Source of the DNA: Thermoplasmata archaeon
GTDB taxonomy: Archaea; Thermoplasmatota; Thermoplasmata; RBG-16-68-12
NCBI GenBank assembly: GCA_036395115.1
Contig: DASWDU010000037.1
Coordinates: 1-64,000, forward strand
Direction of reading: 5' to 3'
DNA: 64,000 nucleotides
Position 1 is the first letter of the stretch; each line of letters begins with the position of its first letter. The translations under genes and the position numbers were made by a program. Of the stretch, positions 6,001 through 59,209 are shown one piece after another. The notes under the pieces were generated by a model. The model made no database searches and was not told the DNA's origin. It saw only the letters and a program-made list of their open reading frames with translations.

Positions 6001-7656
6001 GCGGCTCACCGCGGGACGCCACGGCACCCGGAACGCTTCGGAGATTTCGAGGACGCCCCCTCTGGACAAAGGTACGGTCCGGCGGGAGGGATCGACGGTG
6101 AGGGCGGGCAGATCGCCCTGTGCGGTACCGCCCTCCACCCGGCACGCGGGCGAGCAAGGCGGCAGGGAAGCGGCCTCCCTGTTGCTCACGGTCGCCGTCA
6201 CGGTCTTGAGGGCCTCGTTGCCCGCGCGGTCTCTCGCCCGGACTTCGAACGTGTGGACGCCGTTCGCCAGATCGAGCGTATCGTACACGAACGTATACGG
6301 CTCCGCGTCCCGCTCATCGACCGGCGTGCCGTCAATCGAGAACGAGACGGCGGCGAGCCCCTGGTCGTCAGACACGGCCGCCTCGATCACGACGAGGCCG
6401 CTCAGCGTCTCGCCGGCCGTCGGCCTAAGCAGCGAGAGCTCCGGAGTCGTCCGGTCGACGAATACCGTGATTTCCCGGGAGAAGCGAGCGACGAACTCCC
6501 CGCCCTCATGGGCCTGCGCGATCACGTAGAGGCGGTGCGCCCCTTCAGCCCAGTCGTCGGAGTTCCACGGCAGCGCGAAGGAGCCCGTCGAGTCCCCTTG
6601 GGTGCCGTTGACCCAGATATCGTCCACCTGGAACTGGATGAGCGGATCGGGCCGCCACGCCTTCCCGCGGACCTCGACCGCCCCCCGGACGGCAGCCCCG
6701 TCGGACGGCACGAGGATCGCCGCGCCGCGGGCGTGGAACCCAGGATCCCAGAGCAGCTGCGCCCTCGGACCGTCGTCGCCGAGGAACGCGAGGCCCACGG
6801 ACAGATCATTCGACTGGGGATAGTCGATCTGCAAGTCGAGCGCGGCGGATGCAAACACGCCCGCCGCGGGCGGCGCCTCGATGTCGATCGTCGAATTCAT
6901 CGGACCAAATTCGACGGACCCGAGGCCGGGCGAAACGCGCGCGGCGTAGACCGTCGCCTCTTCCTCGAGGTCCCCAAGGCCGTCTCCATCGCTGTCTTGC
7001 GAGCCCGTGTCGATCAGGAAATCATCAAAGTAGAGGGAGTACCAGGCCCCCGTAAGCCCCGCGGCGCAGAGGAAGCCGACGGAGACCTTCACGAATTCCG
7101 CGGACGTCCAGGGCGCTGAGGGGAAGTCCGCGATCGGGCTGCGGCGGACGTCGGTCCATGCCGCCAGTCCGACAGGCGGCGAAAGGACCACATCCGAAAC
7201 GGTCGGTGCACATCGACCCGCGTTCCGACTCGCATGGTAGGCGGTGATGTACCGCACGCTCCCGAGCGGTCGGTAGCTGCCATCGAGGAAATCCAAAGCG
7301 ACGCCCGCGGCGTACGCGTCCCAGGGGGACGCCACGAGGTCCTGGAGTCGGTCGTACAGAACGGACAGTCGCAGCTCCGTAATCGGCGCGTTGCGAATCG
7401 GGAAGATCGCGTATCCGTACGCGGAACCGAAGTCGCGGACGGTCCATCCGCGAATCTCGACGTGAAAGGAGCGGCTCCCAGACCTCGCGAAGCTCGAGGA
7501 ATAGCCCGCGGACGCCCGGTCGCCGAGGTGGAAGTGGGTGAAGGGCAGCCAGGTGTCGTCCTCGAAGTCGTCGATGAGCGCCGAAGCCGGCGCGGAGCCG
7601 ACGAGCATGATGCCGACGAAGCCGATCGCTGCGACGAATCTCCAAGAGCCGCGCAC
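3037..7656 (-). CDS. Giant exported protein with Ig-like domain and thrombospondin-type-3 calcium repeats
   Basis: A 1,539-residue secreted or surface protein. The GTG start at 7656 has a GGAGGT ribosome site 7 nt upstream and opens a signal peptide (VRGSWRFVAAIGFVGIMLVGSAPASA). An N-terminal beta-rich domain follows (about residues 27-215, ligand-binding jelly-roll-like by pattern). Then come an Ig-like segment (about 400-490, YTFVYDTLDLANGVHTFEV) and a run of DxDxDG calcium repeats (about 620-845, for example DTDGDGLRDDEE, DTDRDGLSDFDE), with one isolated DSDGDG near 222. The long C-terminal half ends in hydrophobic segments (about 1395-1415 and 1435-1465) that could anchor it in the membrane. 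Likely a Ca2+-stabilised envelope protein; ligand unknown. Confidence 0.8.
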   Translation of the reverse strand: MRGSWRFVAAIGFVGIMLVGSAPASALIDDFEDDTWLPFTHFHLGDRASAGYSSSFARSGSRSFHVEIRGWTVRDFGSAYGYAIFPIRNAPITELRLSVLYDRLQDLVASPWDAYAAGVALDFLDGSYRPLGSVRYITAYHASRNAGRCAPTVSDVVLSPPVGLAAWTDVRRSPIADFPSAPWTSAEFVKVSVGFLCAAGLTGAWYSLYFDDFLIDTGSQDSDGDGLGDLEEEATVYAARVSPGLGSVEFGPMNSTIDIEAPPAAGVFASAALDLQIDYPQSNDLSVGLAFLGDDGPRAQLLWDPGFHARGAAILVPSDGAAVRGAVEVRGKAWRPDPLIQFQVDDIWVNGTQGDSTGSFALPWNSDDWAEGAHRLYVIAQAHEGGEFVARFSREITVFVDRTTPELSLLRPTAGETLSGLVVIEAAVSDDQGLAAVSFSIDGTPVDERDAEPYTFVYDTLDLANGVHTFEVRARDRAGNEALKTVTATVSNREAASLPPCSPACRVEGGTAQGDLPALTVDPSRRTVPLSRGGVLEISEAFRVPWRPAVSRTDTGVHLVLDLLRPRILAESDGLVGSDLIAGDLSSVRSWQVVLRNHGAESGRIASASILLAFRTSPGSKDTDRDGISDAVERSTTHTIPVLPDTDGDFLADGEEIASRTLRFVVDGAAYDRIIRTDPLDFDTDDDGLMDGFELLPGEGMRPTDPIDPDTDVDGLLDGPERLTYGTDPTLSDTDVDTLTDYQEVTPRPFRTEIDGVPVERSLVTSPIAPDTDGDGLRDDEEWDGRARYGFLTDPTDSDTDRDGLSDFDELEGLNRRPTNPLLSDTDGDGVVDGLDLSPTELWSPPWRGAFEPGLVRFTQRFHALGVHGLSATIWTYNIDADDCVYLSDHTDDATRSSNESIEDVLSTINHVLAEGGETNFTARKAEDLGQDSWGTWAINYGDCDVWSPRQYRFKYIEDSHASDVDFVNVAEVPVRDDAGERIYHASMDVPIRLGKPQGVIVQFSIRPEADRGTETADGTTVPAFVYSLFRGTDFLAAPPFYQNLAVGAAIDDHAYEFQLRIPREVATEENTTQVGGVPAATLVLTPVWLTSDGFSVTKAALNVTDVTVAATLVRVQESAEYVVARLSTDMEALEAALPDSTEGLVTGFYSFDPFSVYVYRMGDPFDSEAPASADAIYLLGDSPEEIASFQDTITWAPEDAWVRNSVDGFGIALKVFKMIRQGISITSQLTANMLFPVLNVPSGAREEMSFGRSTFTVTKLTNLETDQPYYVVGETAAVTVKLRVPHPEIPSVELTEVRVLEKEVRGEIVDNLDDSRLLTGVKYTQLRSAMRGAAVGATLVIFGSQAILAFRDGDVVKGTVYVLAGATAVFGVLKSDEVLVEGLFRGQIFKTGLRIRLGVAAAIAVGGILASYEVFQASQTDNPIKRLSHYESAGTIVVDTIIAVVPLYGAAAMLGWQLGLTITVGAEALLGIMPDPLALKIVSTPGSTITFLFEYVFGSEIPSDIAEDALIQLLNFLADTARFDNSLDPPDPTILLVP

Positions 7657-7888: not shown

Positions 7889-8734
7889 ATGACGTACGCG
7901 CATCCCGAAGTCTTGGTCGACTCGAGTTGGGTCAAGGGAAACCTGGGGAGCGAGAACCTCCGGATCGCCGAGGTCGACTACGATCCGACGGCGAACTACA
8001 ACCTCGGGCACATCCCGGGGTCCGTGCTCATCGACTGGAAGAGAGACATCAACGATCCCGTGCGACGGGACATCGTTTCGAAGGAGGACCTCGAGGTGCT
8101 CTTCGGCCGTCTCGGGATCTCGAACGACCACCGGCTCGTCCTGTACGGCGACTTCAACAACTGGTTCGCCGCGTTCGCGTTCTGGGTCTTCAAGTATTAC
8201 GGCGTTGAGAACGTCGTCCTCCTGAACGGCGGCCGGAAGAAGTGGATCGAGGAAGATCTGCCCCTCACGAAGGACGTGCCCTCGGTTCCCACGACCACCT
8301 TCGCCGCGAAGGAGCCGGACGAGGACCTGCGCGCCTACCTGCATTACGTCCGGCAGACGTTCCGCGACAAGGACAAGGTCCTCGTCGACGTCCGATCGCC
8401 GAAAGAATTCACGGGCGAGATCCTCGCGCCGCCGGAATATCCGACGGAGCACGCGCAGCGCGGCGGGCACATCCCCGGGGCGAAGAACATTCCGTGGGGC
8501 CAGGCCGTGAACGAGGACGGGACGTTCAAGACGCCGGAGGAGCTGAAGGCCCTCTACGAGCCGAAAGGCGTGACGCCGGACAAGGAAGTCATCGCGTACT
8601 GCCGCATCGGCGAGCGGTCGTCCCACACGTGGTTCGTCCTGAAGTACCTCCTCGGCTACCCGAACGTCCGGAACTACGACGGCTCGTGGACGGAGTGGGG
8701 GAACCTCGTGCGGACGCCGATCGAGAAGCCGTGA
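7889..8734 (+). CDS. Thiosulfate sulfurtransferase (two-domain rhodanese)
   Basis: A 281-residue tandem rhodanese, the usual length. It is predicted to transfer sulfane sulfur from thiosulfate or 3-mercaptopyruvate to a thiophilic acceptor in the cytoplasm. The N-terminal domain (about 1-125) is catalytically silent: its loop reads YGDFNNW instead of a Cys loop. The C-terminal domain (about 150-281) has the active loop CRIGERSS with Cys238 and the conserved GHIPGAKNIPW. ATG 7889 follows a GAGGGG ribosome site. A TATA-like atataac lies about 45 nt upstream. This intact gene heads the island: its last 75-200 bp recur at least eight times downstream between accessory genes. The tail [20 protein letters not shown] marks all the better copies. 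Confidence 0.93.
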   Translation: MTYAHPEVLVDSSWVKGNLGSENLRIAEVDYDPTANYNLGHIPGSVLIDWKRDINDPVRRDIVSKEDLEVLFGRLGISNDHRLVLYGDFNNWFAAFAFWVFKYYGVENVVLLNGGRKKWIEEDLPLTKDVPSVPTTTFAAKEPDEDLRAYLHYVRQTFRDKDKVLVDVRSPKEFTGEILAPPEYPTEHAQRGGHIPGAKNIPWGQAVNEDGTFKTPEELKALYEPKGVTPDKEVIAYCRIGERSSHTWFVLKYLLGYPNVRNYDGSWTEWGNLVRTPIEKP

Positions 8735-16754: not shown

Positions 16755-16822
16755 ATTTAAGCTTTGCGTTTTGCACTCCCACGATGGGGATGTTCCAAGT
16801 GGGAGGCGATCTCAACGTCCTC

Positions 16823-17001
16823 CACGAGCCGAAAGGCGTGACGCCGGACAGAGAAGTCATCGCCTACTGCCGGATCGGCGAGCGCTCCTCGCACACGTGG
16901 TTCGTCCTGAAGCACCTCCTCGGCTACCCGGACGTCCGGAACTACGACGGCTCCTGGACGGAGTGGGGGAACCTCGTCGGACGCCGATCGAGAAGTCGTG
17001 A
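16823..17001 (+). repeat. Rhodanese 3'-end copy B
   Basis: Matches from about codon 224 (EPKGVTP) to the stop. The Cys loop [12 protein letters not shown] is intact at the protein level. A one-base deletion in cctcgt-cggacg shifts the frame shortly before the end. Several synonymous differences from the intact gene are seen, as expected for a copy that diverged as coding sequence in another lineage. It directly follows the VapBC unit. Confidence 0.87.
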
Positions 17002-17059
17002 TCGGTCGGCCAGGCCTGAAAGCCATCCATCGCCTTCGGGTGACCGAACCGGGGAGCCA

Positions 17060-17659
17060 CTAATGCCCTGGTTTCCGCGCCGCCACGACGACGCTCTCCG
17101 CCCCGAACGTCTTCGTGATTCGCTTTGTGCTCTCGGAGGACGACCGAGAGAAATAATCGAGTCGCTTCAGGATCCGTACGTCGTGGAACCCTGCCGACCC
17201 GATCGTTTCTAGGTACTCCGGCTCCACGGCAGCGCCCCCGATGCAGTCCGCCCAGAGTTGCGGGTTCAGTCCACAGACGTCGCCAACGTCCGACTGCACG
17301 ACGATGTCCGCAAGTTGCAGGCGCCCGCCGGGTTTCAGGACGCGGTAGATCTCGCGGAACGCGGAGGACTTGTCCGGCACGAGGTTCAGCACCCCGTTGC
17401 TCGTCACGACGTCCACGCTGCCATCCGGGAGCGGGATGCGCGTCGCGTCCCCCTCCAGGATTCGGACGTTCTTCACTCCCATCCGCTCGATGTTCGACTG
17501 CGCCTTGGCGATCATCGCGGGAGTGATGTCGAGGCCGTACACGTTCCCGGATGACCCGACCTTCAAGGAGGCGAACAGGATGTCCGTCCCGGAGCCAGAT
17601 CCGATGTCAAGCACGGTGTCGCCTGGCCGCATCGACTCCGCCAGGTGTGGGTACCCCAC
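17060..17659 (-). CDS. SAM-dependent methyltransferase (ArsM/UbiE-like), N-terminal part separated by a frameshift
   Basis: About 199 residues of a class I methyltransferase. Motif I is [16 protein letters not shown] and motif [36 protein letters not shown] follows. It resembles arsenite-methyltransferase/UbiE-like enzymes, but the Cys residues needed for arsenite binding are not evident, so the substrate is open. GTG 17659 is only the first in-frame start. The frame upstream of a single missing base near 17690 encodes the expected N-terminal lead ([18 protein letters not shown]) in continuity with the DsbA-like protein. The authentic product was probably a fusion. Confidence 0.75.
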
Positions 17660-51922: not shown

Positions 51923-52117
51923 CGTCGAACCACCATCGGGCTCCGCTGAGCCGGATTTCCAAGTCTCCCTTCCCCCGGCCATCGACGAACCCCTCTTCGC
52001 GCGGGAGCCCACAATCCGTCAAGTACATTTCGGTCCGGCCGCGGCGGGGACAAACCCCGACATCGACTCTTCGGAGTCGGCCAAACCGTTTTGTGCCGGG
52101 CCCACCTTGGGAGAGGC

Positions 52118-53143
52118 GTGCGTGCGATCCGGTTCGAGCCGGGCGGAGCCATAAAGCTCGTGCAGGTCCCGAATCCGCAACCGGGACCGGAGGACGTCTT
52201 GCTCCAAGTCCTCGCCGCGGGCGTATGTCATACGGACCTGCACCTCCTCGACGGGATGAAATCGGGCGACCGCCCGCCGATCGTCCCGGGCCACGAGATC
52301 GTCGGTCGGATTACGAAGGTCGGCGGCGACGTGTACTCGGCGAACGTCGGCGACCGCGTCGTCGTCCACTTCGGACAGCCATGCGGCCGGTGCCGACAGT
52401 GCCGGCGCAAGCGCACGAACCTCTGCGAGGAAGGGCACATGCTCGGTTTCGATCAACCCGGCGGGTACGCCGAGTTCGTCGTCGCGAAGCAATCCACCGT
52501 CCTGCCGCTTCCTCCCAACGTGCCCCCGGCCGTCGCCGCGCCGCTCGGCTGTAGCGGGGCCACCGCACACCGTGCCGTCGTGACCCAGGGCGAGGCGGAC
52601 GAAGACGACCTCGTCGTCATCATCGGCGCGGGGGGCGTGGGGCTGTCCGCCGTGCAGATCGCGAAAGTACAGGGGGCGAAAGTCGTCGCAGTCGACACAC
52701 GGGAGGAGGCGCGCAAGGCGGCCCTGGATTCCGGCGCCGACGAAGCGGTGGCTCCCGCAGAGGCGGCCAAGGCGGTCCGAGGACTCGTGAACGAGGCCGG
52801 GGCCGACGTCGTCGTGGACTTCGTCGGAAAGAGGAGCACCTTCGACCTCGGTCGCTCGCTGCTGGGATTCGGCGGACGATTCGTCGCCGTGGCTCCTGGG
52901 GACGAAACGACGACGGTGCGGGCGAACGACCTCGTCAATGGCGGCAAGTCGTACCTCGGCGTCTATTCGTCCACGATGGCGGACCTCGCGCGGGTGATCG
53001 CGCTCGCGGAGGCGAAGCGGCTCACGCCCGTCGTGACTCGGAAGGAGCCGCTGGCGAGCGCCGAGGGCGTCCTCAAGGACCTCCGAAACGAGCGGATCGT
53101 TGGCCGCGCGGTCCTCTTCCCCGGGCCAACGGACCCGGACTAG
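52118..53143 (+). CDS. Zinc-dependent alcohol dehydrogenase (MDR family)
   Basis: A 341-residue medium-chain dehydrogenase from GTG 52118 (GGGAGAGG before it). Catalytic zinc ligands: Cys in GVCHTDLHL, then His-Glu in GHEIVGRI. Structural zinc Cys occur in PCGRCRQCRRKRTNLCEEG. The NAD(P)-binding motif is GAGGVGLSAVQIAK, followed by VAVDTREEARKAAL, with the Asp suggesting NAD. Predicted to oxidise alcohols or reduce aldehydes in the cytoplasm. Complete and of normal length. Confidence 0.92.
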   Translation: MRAIRFEPGGAIKLVQVPNPQPGPEDVLLQVLAAGVCHTDLHLLDGMKSGDRPPIVPGHEIVGRITKVGGDVYSANVGDRVVVHFGQPCGRCRQCRRKRTNLCEEGHMLGFDQPGGYAEFVVAKQSTVLPLPPNVPPAVAAPLGCSGATAHRAVVTQGEADEDDLVVIIGAGGVGLSAVQIAKVQGAKVVAVDTREEARKAALDSGADEAVAPAEAAKAVRGLVNEAGADVVVDFVGKRSTFDLGRSLLGFGGRFVAVAPGDETTTVRANDLVNGGKSYLGVYSSTMADLARVIALAEAKRLTPVVTRKEPLASAEGVLKDLRNERIVGRAVLFPGPTDPD

Positions 53144-53251: not shown

Positions 53252-53941
53252 TCAACGCGCTCTCCGGACGAGGAAGTGGAACAAGTTCCCCTCCTTTCGC
53301 TCGTCGATCACCGGCTGGCTCGTCTGGTCTGACCACCGCACCATTTCAATCGGCGCTGTCGGATCGTCCGTCACGAGGTGGACGACCTCGCCGATCGGAA
53401 TCTGCGCGAGCAGTTCGTTCAGCTTCACGAGAACCGCGGAGCACTCGACACCGATCTCGAACATCTCGTGATCCGGGAATGCAGCGAAGCACCGAACCCG
53501 CAACGCCTTGATGTTCTTCGCGAGTGTGTCCCGCGCGTCCCGCGTCGCCTCCAACGCACTCCGGTCCGCCCGATTCGTCGGATGGAGGCGCGCAAACCAT
53601 CCGTCACCGTACGGCGCGTCGACGATCGTCCGCGGCTTCGCGAGGACCGCTCCGTTGACTTCCTTCAAGATCCCGCCGACCGGCGCCCGAATCGGGCCGA
53701 AGTACTTCGCGCTCTCGACGAGCCCGATCGCCGCGCCAGCCGGATACTCGAGGTCGAGCGGCTTCGCCCTGATTCGCGTAATCAGGCCTGCGACGGCGAC
53801 GTAAATGCTCGTGATGCCCACGGCGACATCGCCCGAGTCCAAGAGGCGGGCCCAAGTGAGGCCGTCCCGTTCGTACAGGAGGTCGTCCGGGAAATCGCAG
53901 TGCTCGATCTCCACCGGAGGTCCCTCAGCGAAGGAAGACAT
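53252..53941 (-). CDS. GcvH-like lipoyl carrier fused to a TusA-like sulfur carrier domain
   Basis: A 229-residue two-domain protein from ATG 53941. Residues about 10-125 are a GcvH-like fold: LDSGDVAVGITSIYVAVAGL, then PAGAAIGLVESAKYFGPIRA with the lipoyl-lysine position in ESAK. Residues about 150-229 resemble TusA: FEIGVECSAVLVKLNELLAQ, IGEVVHLVTDDPTAPIEMV and EGNLFHFLVRR. The CPxP signature is CSAV, keeping the reactive Cys but not the prolines. The fusion suggests lipoate-linked sulfur handling like lipoate-binding proteins of the sHdr pathway, or just a scaffold. It overlaps the pirin gene by 17 bp. Confidence 0.75.
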   Translation of the reverse strand: MSSFAEGPPVEIEHCDFPDDLLYERDGLTWARLLDSGDVAVGITSIYVAVAGLITRIRAKPLDLEYPAGAAIGLVESAKYFGPIRAPVGGILKEVNGAVLAKPRTIVDAPYGDGWFARLHPTNRADRSALEATRDARDTLAKNIKALRVRCFAAFPDHEMFEIGVECSAVLVKLNELLAQIPIGEVVHLVTDDPTAPIEMVRWSDQTSQPVIDERKEGNLFHFLVRRAR

Positions 53942-54641
53942 CTGCAAGGAGGAGTTCCGCATCCGAGTCGGCGCGAACGCTCACGGCCGGTTCGCCCACG
54001 ACCCTCGCCGCGCCGAGCGCTGGAACGGCCTTTCCGTTCACGCGGACCGGGCCGCCGCTCAAGACGTAGAGGTATGCACCCCGGTGATCCTCGAGCGGAT
54101 GCGAGACCGTCCGGTCCGCCTCCAGGAACGAGGAGAACACGCGCGCATCTGACAGGATCGTCAGCGCGTTCCGGTCGTCGTTCGAGACGAGCGAGAGCAA
54201 CCGATTCGTGCGGTCCGCCTTCCGGACCACCTTCTGTTCTACGGACGGCTCGAGGCCCGGGGTCGACGGAACGTACCACATCTGGATGAAACGCATTGGG
54301 AGGTCCTTCCGATTGTTGATCTCGCTGTGCCACATCCCGCGCCCGACGGTCGTGTGCTGCGCCCATCCCTCCTTCAGTACCCCGCCCTCGCCATTCTCGT
54401 CCGCGTGCCGGAACTCGCCGGCCGCGCAGTATGTGACGACCTCGATTTCGCGGTGCGGATGCAACGGCCAGACGGCGCCCGGCGTGAGCGTGTCGTCGTT
54501 GAAGACCCGCAACGTGCCGAACCGTACCCACTCCGGGTCGAAGTACCGATCGAACGAGAAGTGCCAACGGCCGTGGGCCGAGCCTCCATCGATGGGCACG
54601 TCCGTCTGGAAGATCGACTCGGGGCTCCGGACCGTGATCAT
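53925..54641 (-). CDS. Pirin-like bicupin protein
   Basis: About 238 residues from ATG 54641 (MITVRSPESIFQTDVPIDGG). The N-terminal cupin has FGTLRVFNDDTLTPGAVWPL then HPHREIEVVTYCAAGEFRHA, with two His and a Glu for metal binding, and HTTVGRGMWHSEINN after it. A shorter C-terminal cupin follows (YLYVLSGGPVRVNGKAVPAL). Pirins act as quercetinase-like dioxygenases or redox-dependent cofactors. It is upstream of, and overlaps, the GcvH-TusA gene. Confidence 0.88.
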   Translation of the reverse strand: MITVRSPESIFQTDVPIDGGSAHGRWHFSFDRYFDPEWVRFGTLRVFNDDTLTPGAVWPLHPHREIEVVTYCAAGEFRHADENGEGGVLKEGWAQHTTVGRGMWHSEINNRKDLPMRFIQMWYVPSTPGLEPSVEQKVVRKADRTNRLLSLVSNDDRNALTILSDARVFSSFLEADRTVSHPLEDHRGAYLYVLSGGPVRVNGKAVPALGAARVVGEPAVSVRADSDAELLLADVFLR

Positions 54642-54792
54642 GGGGACGATTCGAAGGCGGCGGATGACTTTGAAGGTTTGGCGGCCCCGCCACCGGAACA
54701 ATCGACCGAAACGCTTTAGCGCCCGCCGACCGCGTACGGGACCGGATCGTATGGCGCGTCACCATCCCCCGCCAGCCGAAGGAGGAGAGCGC

Positions 54793-58009: not shown

Positions 58010-59209
58010 ATGGCCAAGCGGAAATCGGCACGTAGGAGGGCGACCAAGACGGCCGCGCGGAAACGGAAGCTCTACGACATGGCGCTCATCCAGCGCGGCG
58101 CACGCCTGCGGCGGTCCCCGTTCTTCGACAAGACACTCGAAGCGGGCTGCAAGTCGTATACGGTCTACAACCACACGTTCCTGCCGAGCTACTTCGACGA
58201 CCCCGTGAAGGAGTACTGGCACCTCCTGAAGCACGTCGCCCTCTGGGACGTTGCCGTGGAGCGCAACGTGGAGATCAGCGGTCCCGACGCCTTCGCCTTC
58301 ATGCAACTCCTCACGCCCCGGGACATGCGGAACTGCAAGGTCGGCCAAGGGAAGTACGTCCTCATCACGGACGAGGACGGGGGCATCCTGAACGACCCCG
58401 TGCTCCTGCGCCTCGAGGAGAACCGATTCTGGATTGCCTTGGCGGACAGCGACATCCTCCTCTGGGCCAAGGGTGTCGCCTACCACTCCGGAATGGACGT
58501 CAAGATCACGGAGCCGGACGCGTCGCCCCTTCAGGTCCAAGGTCCAAAGTCGAAGGCACTCATGACGGATCTGTTCGGGGAGAAGGTCACTTCCCTCCCG
58601 TACTACTTCTTTACGCGGGCGGACCTCGACGGAATCCCGCTCGTCGTCACGCGTACCGGCTGGACCGGGGAGGTTGGCTATGAGCTGTACCTCCTCGACG
58701 GATCCCGGGGCGGGGACCTCTGGGACGCGGTCGTGAAGGCCGGAAAGCAGTACAACCTTCGGCCCACGGGTCCCTCGGACATCCGCCGGATCGAGGCGGG
58801 CATCCTGAACTACGGCGCCGACATGACGATCGAGAACAACCCCTATGAGGTCGACCTCGGCCGGCTCGTGGACCTCGACAAGTCGAGCGACTTCATCGGC
58901 AAGGAGGCCCTCCAGCGAATCAAGGACGAAGGCCCGAAGTGGAGGCTCATTGGAATCGAGATCGACGGAAAGCCGATCGAATTCAACATGACGAAGTGGA
59001 CCGTGACGGCGGGAGGCCGCCCCGTTGGCCGCGTGACCTCCGCGATTCACTCCCCTCGGCTCAAGAAGAACATTGGATACGCGATGCTACCGATCACGCA
59101 CGCAGACCTTGGGATGGAACTCACCGTGGAACACCCTGACGGACCGCGGCCCGCCACGGTCGTGAAGAAGCCGTTCATCGACCCGGGGAAAGAAATCCCG
59201 AAAGGCTAG
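58010..59209 (+). CDS. GcvT-family folate-dependent enzyme (aminomethyltransferase/DmdA-like)
   Basis: A 399-residue protein with a basic N-terminal extension (KRKSARRRATKTAARKRK). The GcvT fold begins at FLPSYFDDPVKEYWHLLKHV. Folate-site features: LWDVAVERNVEISGPDAFAF, KVGQGKYVLITDEDGGILND, VVTRTGWTGEVGYELYLLDG and GPSDIRRIEAGILNYGADMT. The last matches the GxxARDxLRxEAGxxLYG region of GcvT/DmdA. Likely transfers a one-carbon unit to tetrahydrofolate or a pterin from glycine-, DMSP- or methylamine-like donors. No other glycine cleavage genes lie beside it. Confidence 0.85.
   Translation: MAKRKSARRRATKTAARKRKLYDMALIQRGARLRRSPFFDKTLEAGCKSYTVYNHTFLPSYFDDPVKEYWHLLKHVALWDVAVERNVEISGPDAFAFMQLLTPRDMRNCKVGQGKYVLITDEDGGILNDPVLLRLEENRFWIALADSDILLWAKGVAYHSGMDVKITEPDASPLQVQGPKSKALMTDLFGEKVTSLPYYFFTRADLDGIPLVVTRTGWTGEVGYELYLLDGSRGGDLWDAVVKAGKQYNLRPTGPSDIRRIEAGILNYGADMTIENNPYEVDLGRLVDLDKSSDFIGKEALQRIKDEGPKWRLIGIEIDGKPIEFNMTKWTVTAGGRPVGRVTSAIHSPRLKKNIGYAMLPITHADLGMELTVEHPDGPRPATVVKKPFIDPGKEIPKG

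Follow-up and report, generated by a model that had tools for sequence, protein, structure and literature searches.

What would an archaeon do with a single protein that joins the fold of a lipoyl carrier to that of a sulfur carrier? The question is raised by a gene on the minus strand of the window, i.e., the whole stretch of 64,000 nucleotides of Thermoplasmata DNA analyzed here. The original prediction had proposed that this gene fuses a GcvH-like lipoyl carrier with a TusA-like sulfur carrier, that it would be a short cut in the sulfur-oxidizing heterodisulfide-reductase-like (sHdr) pathway, where the two kinds of carrier work together, and that a rhodanese encoded at 7889 could feed sulfur to it. 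The gene (53252–53962) codes for 236 aa when read from its first ATG at 53962, the start given originally (53941) being Met8 of that chain. Because most orthologues begin at the position of Val17, which is encoded here by a GTG at 53914–53912, this GTG may be the true start and yield a 220-aa protein. Such a start would also remove the overlap with a pirin-family gene located directly upstream on the same minus strand (53925–54701), an adjacency kept only among close relatives.

That one chain combines a lipoyl-domain fold of the GcvH/LbpA type with a TusA fold is confirmed, as Pfam, AlphaFold2 and Foldseek agree on both halves. Residues 36–148 (53519–53857, minus strand) match Pfam GCV_H with an E-value of 6.3e-19, and residues 171–234 (53261–53452, minus strand) match Pfam TusA with an E-value of 3e-7 and a score above the curated cut-off (30.6 vs 28.6 bits). 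By the NCBIfam gcvH model, the protein scores 36.8 bits, below the cut-off of 115.85. An AlphaFold2 model computed from an alignment of 44 natural relatives of the fusion is confident (pLDDT 91.8, pTM 0.81), with both domains folded. Foldseek aligns the N-terminal half with GcvH (1onl, target TM 0.92) and the C-terminal half with TusA (3lvj chain C, target TM 0.88); the latter half also weakly matches YeeD/TsuB (8j4c), a protein that works with the YeeE/TsuA thiosulfate channel, and no YeeE-type gene was noticed on inspection of the genes adjoining the fusion. The ESAK and CSAV motifs lie where they had been predicted, i.e., around Lys86 at the lipoyl-lysine position (53705–53707, minus strand) and Cys174 of the TusA half (53441–53443, minus strand). 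A chance reading frame or an assembly join is ruled out since full-length, stop-free copies occur in dozens of independent genomes.

In all, 71 distinct (non-identical) fusions were gathered from Thermoplasmata and Thermoproteota. Their hosts are known from metagenome-assembled genomes of soil and other Thermoplasmata and from Thermoproteota, including one Candidatus Nitrosocaldus and two Nitrososphaeraceae records. Among the sampled Thermoplasmatota, 19 of 390 genomes carry the fusion, spread over three families. The phylum to which the Nitrosocaldus record belongs yielded 56 genomes that match the fusion profile at 1e-30 among 398 sampled, and slightly more than 30 of these matches span both halves. 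A search of open-access papers found no published description of a GcvH/LbpA-TusA fusion.

Three cysteines are kept in all 71 fusions: Cys22 (53897–53899), Cys158 (53489–53491) and Cys174, the codons of all three lying on the minus strand. The last of these, foreseen as the reactive residue of the TusA half, stands at the N-terminal end of the helix 174–187. Its surroundings read EC[S/A]A[V/I/T] and form the C-terminal part of a larger chain, whereas E. coli TusA (3lvj chain C), which has the same fold and likewise begins its first helix with an invariant cysteine, bears the motif CPxP; the missing prolines count against the reading of the protein as a sulfur carrier. A standalone TusA with CPYP is encoded elsewhere in the genome of the window (L087). 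The other two cysteines correspond to those of LbpA, the lipoate-binding protein of the sHdr pathway, which, unlike GcvH, has a cysteine close to its N-terminus and another that follows the domain (PMC6067878). The same pair is found in one group (SNCEIPEN…KLQC) of the standalone LbpA-type proteins. Standalone proteins of the LbpA type score about 105–126 bits (about 1e-35) against the fusion profile, roughly twice the 45–66 bits or so of true GcvH proteins against the window protein. On account of these scores and of the two extra cysteines, the N-terminal half, although it shares its fold and the ESxK context with GcvH, is better described as LbpA-like than as GcvH-like. The loci of these standalone proteins carry LplA-like and TusA-like genes, named by reading their sequences, and look like the surroundings of sulfur oxidation of the Sulfolobales type. 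A tree built on the N-terminal half, from which the lysine column was excluded, places the standalone proteins on one side with a support of 86; it is weakly rooted, leaves one fusion (L129) without a placement and does not decide between LbpA and GcvH as the source of this half. The unplaced sequence (6450–7157 of its locus) is a second fusion copy in its genome (G364); its TusA motif, GGECPET, comes closer to the classical form, and the fetched stretch around it showed no rhodanese.

The gene most often associated with the fusion is a rhodanese. The window encodes a tandem-domain rhodanese of 281 aa on the plus strand (7889–8734), with two Pfam rhodanese stretches and a CRIGERS loop, whose relatives include CysA2/CysA3 of M. 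tuberculosis and the Thermus rhodanese 1uar. The CRIGER loop, also present in CysA2/CysA3, and the motif CRxGx(R/T) characterize thiosulfate sulfurtransferases (PMC6856128), and by this loop and its two domains the rhodanese is of that type; what sets it apart from CysA2/CysA3 and 1uar is the linkage of its gene to an LbpA-TusA fusion. Most other genomes with the fusion have next to it a gene for a tandem rhodanese of 280 aa that shares 62–80% identity with the product of 7889–8734. The two genes are less than 100 bp apart in 44 of 73 loci, being either convergent, tail to tail (37 loci), or on the same strand with the rhodanese directly upstream (seven loci, gaps of −42 to 63 bp, including some 4-bp overlaps); neighboring genes were called with a simple GC3-based caller, and gene edges are approximate. 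Six further loci have a convergent rhodanese beyond 100 bp. In the remaining 23 of the 73 it was not seen, mostly in the genus of the window, in short fetched stretches or at contig ends; around the fusion in four Thermoproteota-type loci (L130, L132, L157, L158), no rhodanese lies within some 6 kb. In the genome of the window the genes are separated by 45 kb, and they are not adjacent in most of the genus, where an alcohol-dehydrogenase gene (52091–53143 in the window) often occupies that side of the fusion. This neighbor, together with the order fusion, dehydrogenase, rhodanese in one relative (L009), suggests that the rhodanese moved away from the fusion in this genus. A further open reading frame of the window (16784–17209, plus strand), 8 kb from the full copy, encodes a piece of the C-terminal part of this rhodanese and looks like a truncated paralogue or a remnant.

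Occurrence across genomes points in the same direction as gene linkage. Both genes were found in 20 of 61 genomes, the fusion alone in two, the rhodanese alone in three and neither in 36 (Fisher p = 5.7e-11), counts that overstate independence because the genomes are related; with the family of the window excluded, the corresponding figures are three, one, one and 34 (p = 0.002). The rhodanese is thus very probably the functional partner of the fusion, and its proposed role as sulfur feeder became the best-supported of the original guesses.

The answer that we favor, and consider fairly probable on the basis of sequence comparison, is that the fusion serves as a cysteine-based carrier of sulfane sulfur supplied by the rhodanese of 7889–8734, for which lipoate would be optional. 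A donor, for instance thiosulfate, would give up sulfane sulfur to the rhodanese, which would hand it directly to Cys174 in the TusA half, and the LbpA-like half would then, via Cys22 and Cys158, store this sulfur or relay it to an acceptor. Lipoate on Lys86 would be at most an optional extra in some lineages. Published sulfur chemistry connects rhodanese, TusA and LbpA (PMC6067878).

The main alternative keeps the lipoyl arm at the center. The fusion would be a lipoyl carrier joined to TusA, in which a dihydrolipoyl arm on Lys86 would take over the sulfur of the TusA half and later be reoxidized by dihydrolipoyl dehydrogenase. Rhodaneses do pass sulfur to dihydrolipoate in vitro (work cited in PMC6067878), and the window protein has its lysine in the proper context. 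The genome of the window, estimated to be 98% complete, encodes LipB (L095:7498–8211, found with PF21948); the gene adjoins others that, by their sequences, would encode an E2 and a dihydrolipoyl dehydrogenase, and the same region (L165) contains an apparent LipA fragment and an E1 of a 2-oxoacid dehydrogenase. A match to PF03099 was rejected as a lipoate ligase, as it looks like a biotin ligase beside carboxylase genes. Since this genome has both LipB and a separate true GcvH (L088:8744–9124), lipoylation of Lys86 is possible in the window's own protein.

For the family, however, the lysine is dispensable. Of the 71 fusions, 24 have Lys and 43 have Arg at this position, while Thr, Ile, Asn and Val occur once each; the lysine is thus replaced in 47, even within the genus of the window (Arg in L005, Thr in L007). 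Arginine is not lipoylatable, and lipoate therefore cannot be the common function of the fusion family. In LbpA the lipoyl lysine is, by contrast, strictly conserved, and the standalone proteins keep it in 22 of 23 cases, the exception (L060) being a fusion cut by a contig end. The tree of the N-terminal half implies 14 switches between Lys and other residues, at least nine of which are forced by well-supported branches; for instance, two fusions with Lys (L014 and L150) cluster with two with Arg (L147 and L149). The fusion also persists where no LplA/LipB domain passes the family cut-off, as in 11 of the 20 fusion-bearing genomes tested. Four of these (G261, G279, G386 and G414) carry the fusion on one contig of 1.6–3.4 Mb each, and three others (G332, G410 and G281) retain it likewise; G061 and G332 have Lys at the site and yet are among the 11. 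The idea of a conserved lipoyl carrier did not withstand these observations, which, together with the missing sHdr cluster described below, make the lipoyl-arm mechanism unlikely. The N-terminal half thus combines LbpA's cysteines with freedom from LbpA's lysine rule.

The pathway in which the fusion had been placed was not recovered either. LbpA is encoded with an sHdr cluster, whereas the fusion, besides being joined to TusA and occurring in genomes with no detectable lipoate ligase, has no sHdr genes alongside: family and stretch searches detected no sHdr-type cluster near the fusion or in the genome of the window. The four CCG-domain loci of this genome all have other contexts and do not provide the B1/B2 plus C1/C2 set, and sHdr membership was rejected. 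According to their sequences, they encode an HdrD-like protein with electron-transfer flavoprotein genes close by, a GlcF-like protein adjoining a SUF region, an HdrB-like protein downstream of a cytochrome b, and a LutB-like protein. The HdrB-like gene belongs to a row on contig 41 of the same genome (L085, 7294–10243, minus strand) in which Rieske and cytochrome b type genes precede it and a gene for a membrane protein with two ferredoxin-type motifs, with GlcD/GlcE-like genes nearby. Glycine cleavage was likewise rejected as the main role of the fusion, given the separately encoded true GcvH and the lack of a second GcvH-type match in G061, G062 and G064. The window also encodes a GcvT-family protein (58010–59209, plus strand) that passes the NCBIfam cut-off for dimethylsulfoniopropionate demethylase (424.8 vs 410 bits), in what is a soil-type archaeon.

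A second alternative, which we regard as quite improbable, would have both proteins, fusion and rhodanese, work for an ABC-2 type transporter of a sulfur compound or of a sulfur-modified product. Five Thermoproteota-type loci (L130, L132, L136, L157 and L158) have an ATPase and a permease of one ABC-2 type subfamily downstream of the fusion, and one of them (L136) has rhodanese, fusion, ATPase and permease in a single row; many Thermoplasmata also have such genes in the row that contains the rhodanese. One such row (L033, 8001–12632) and its relatives comprise an ABC ATPase, two permeases, a SUI1/eIF1-like gene and the rhodanese, followed by the convergent fusion. The genome of the window has an orthologue with 68% identity (C23:43216–44139), but the transporter is unlinked to the fusion there, in the genus of the window at large and in the Nitrososphaeria loci; it is also present in G056, a genome without the fusion, and the substrate of such transporters is not readable from sequence. 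The association is thus weaker than that with the rhodanese.

Least probable of all, in our opinion, is that the fusion regulates or scaffolds the rhodanese, by docking, sensing or protection, and itself carries no sulfur, a role that would suit the tight linkage to a single enzyme and the degenerate CPxP motif but leaves the invariance of Cys174, at a helix N-terminus as in TusA, and of two more cysteines corresponding to those of LbpA without a purpose.

The cysteine-based carrier thus stays the preferred reading, and it bears on a question that is unsettled in the sHdr pathway itself, namely what the lipoyl arm does and what the two additional cysteines of LbpA are for. Here, a natural LbpA-like protein fused to its proposed sulfur donor, TusA, retains the cysteines and dispenses with the lysine, and in two archaeal phyla its gene stays next to that of a sulfurtransferase. 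This points to a sulfane-sulfur system in ammonia-oxidizing and soil archaea for which no description was found in the open-access literature. The fusion lets the cysteine chemistry be studied separately from lipoate. A more tentative and rather doubtful extension would see in these archaea a self-contained, lipoate-independent relay that consists of the rhodanese and the fusion, joined in some lineages by a dedicated ABC-2 type transporter, with an LbpA-type domain working via its two cysteines alone; if this were true, the cysteine pair, rather than the lipoyl arm, would be the core function of such LbpA-type proteins.
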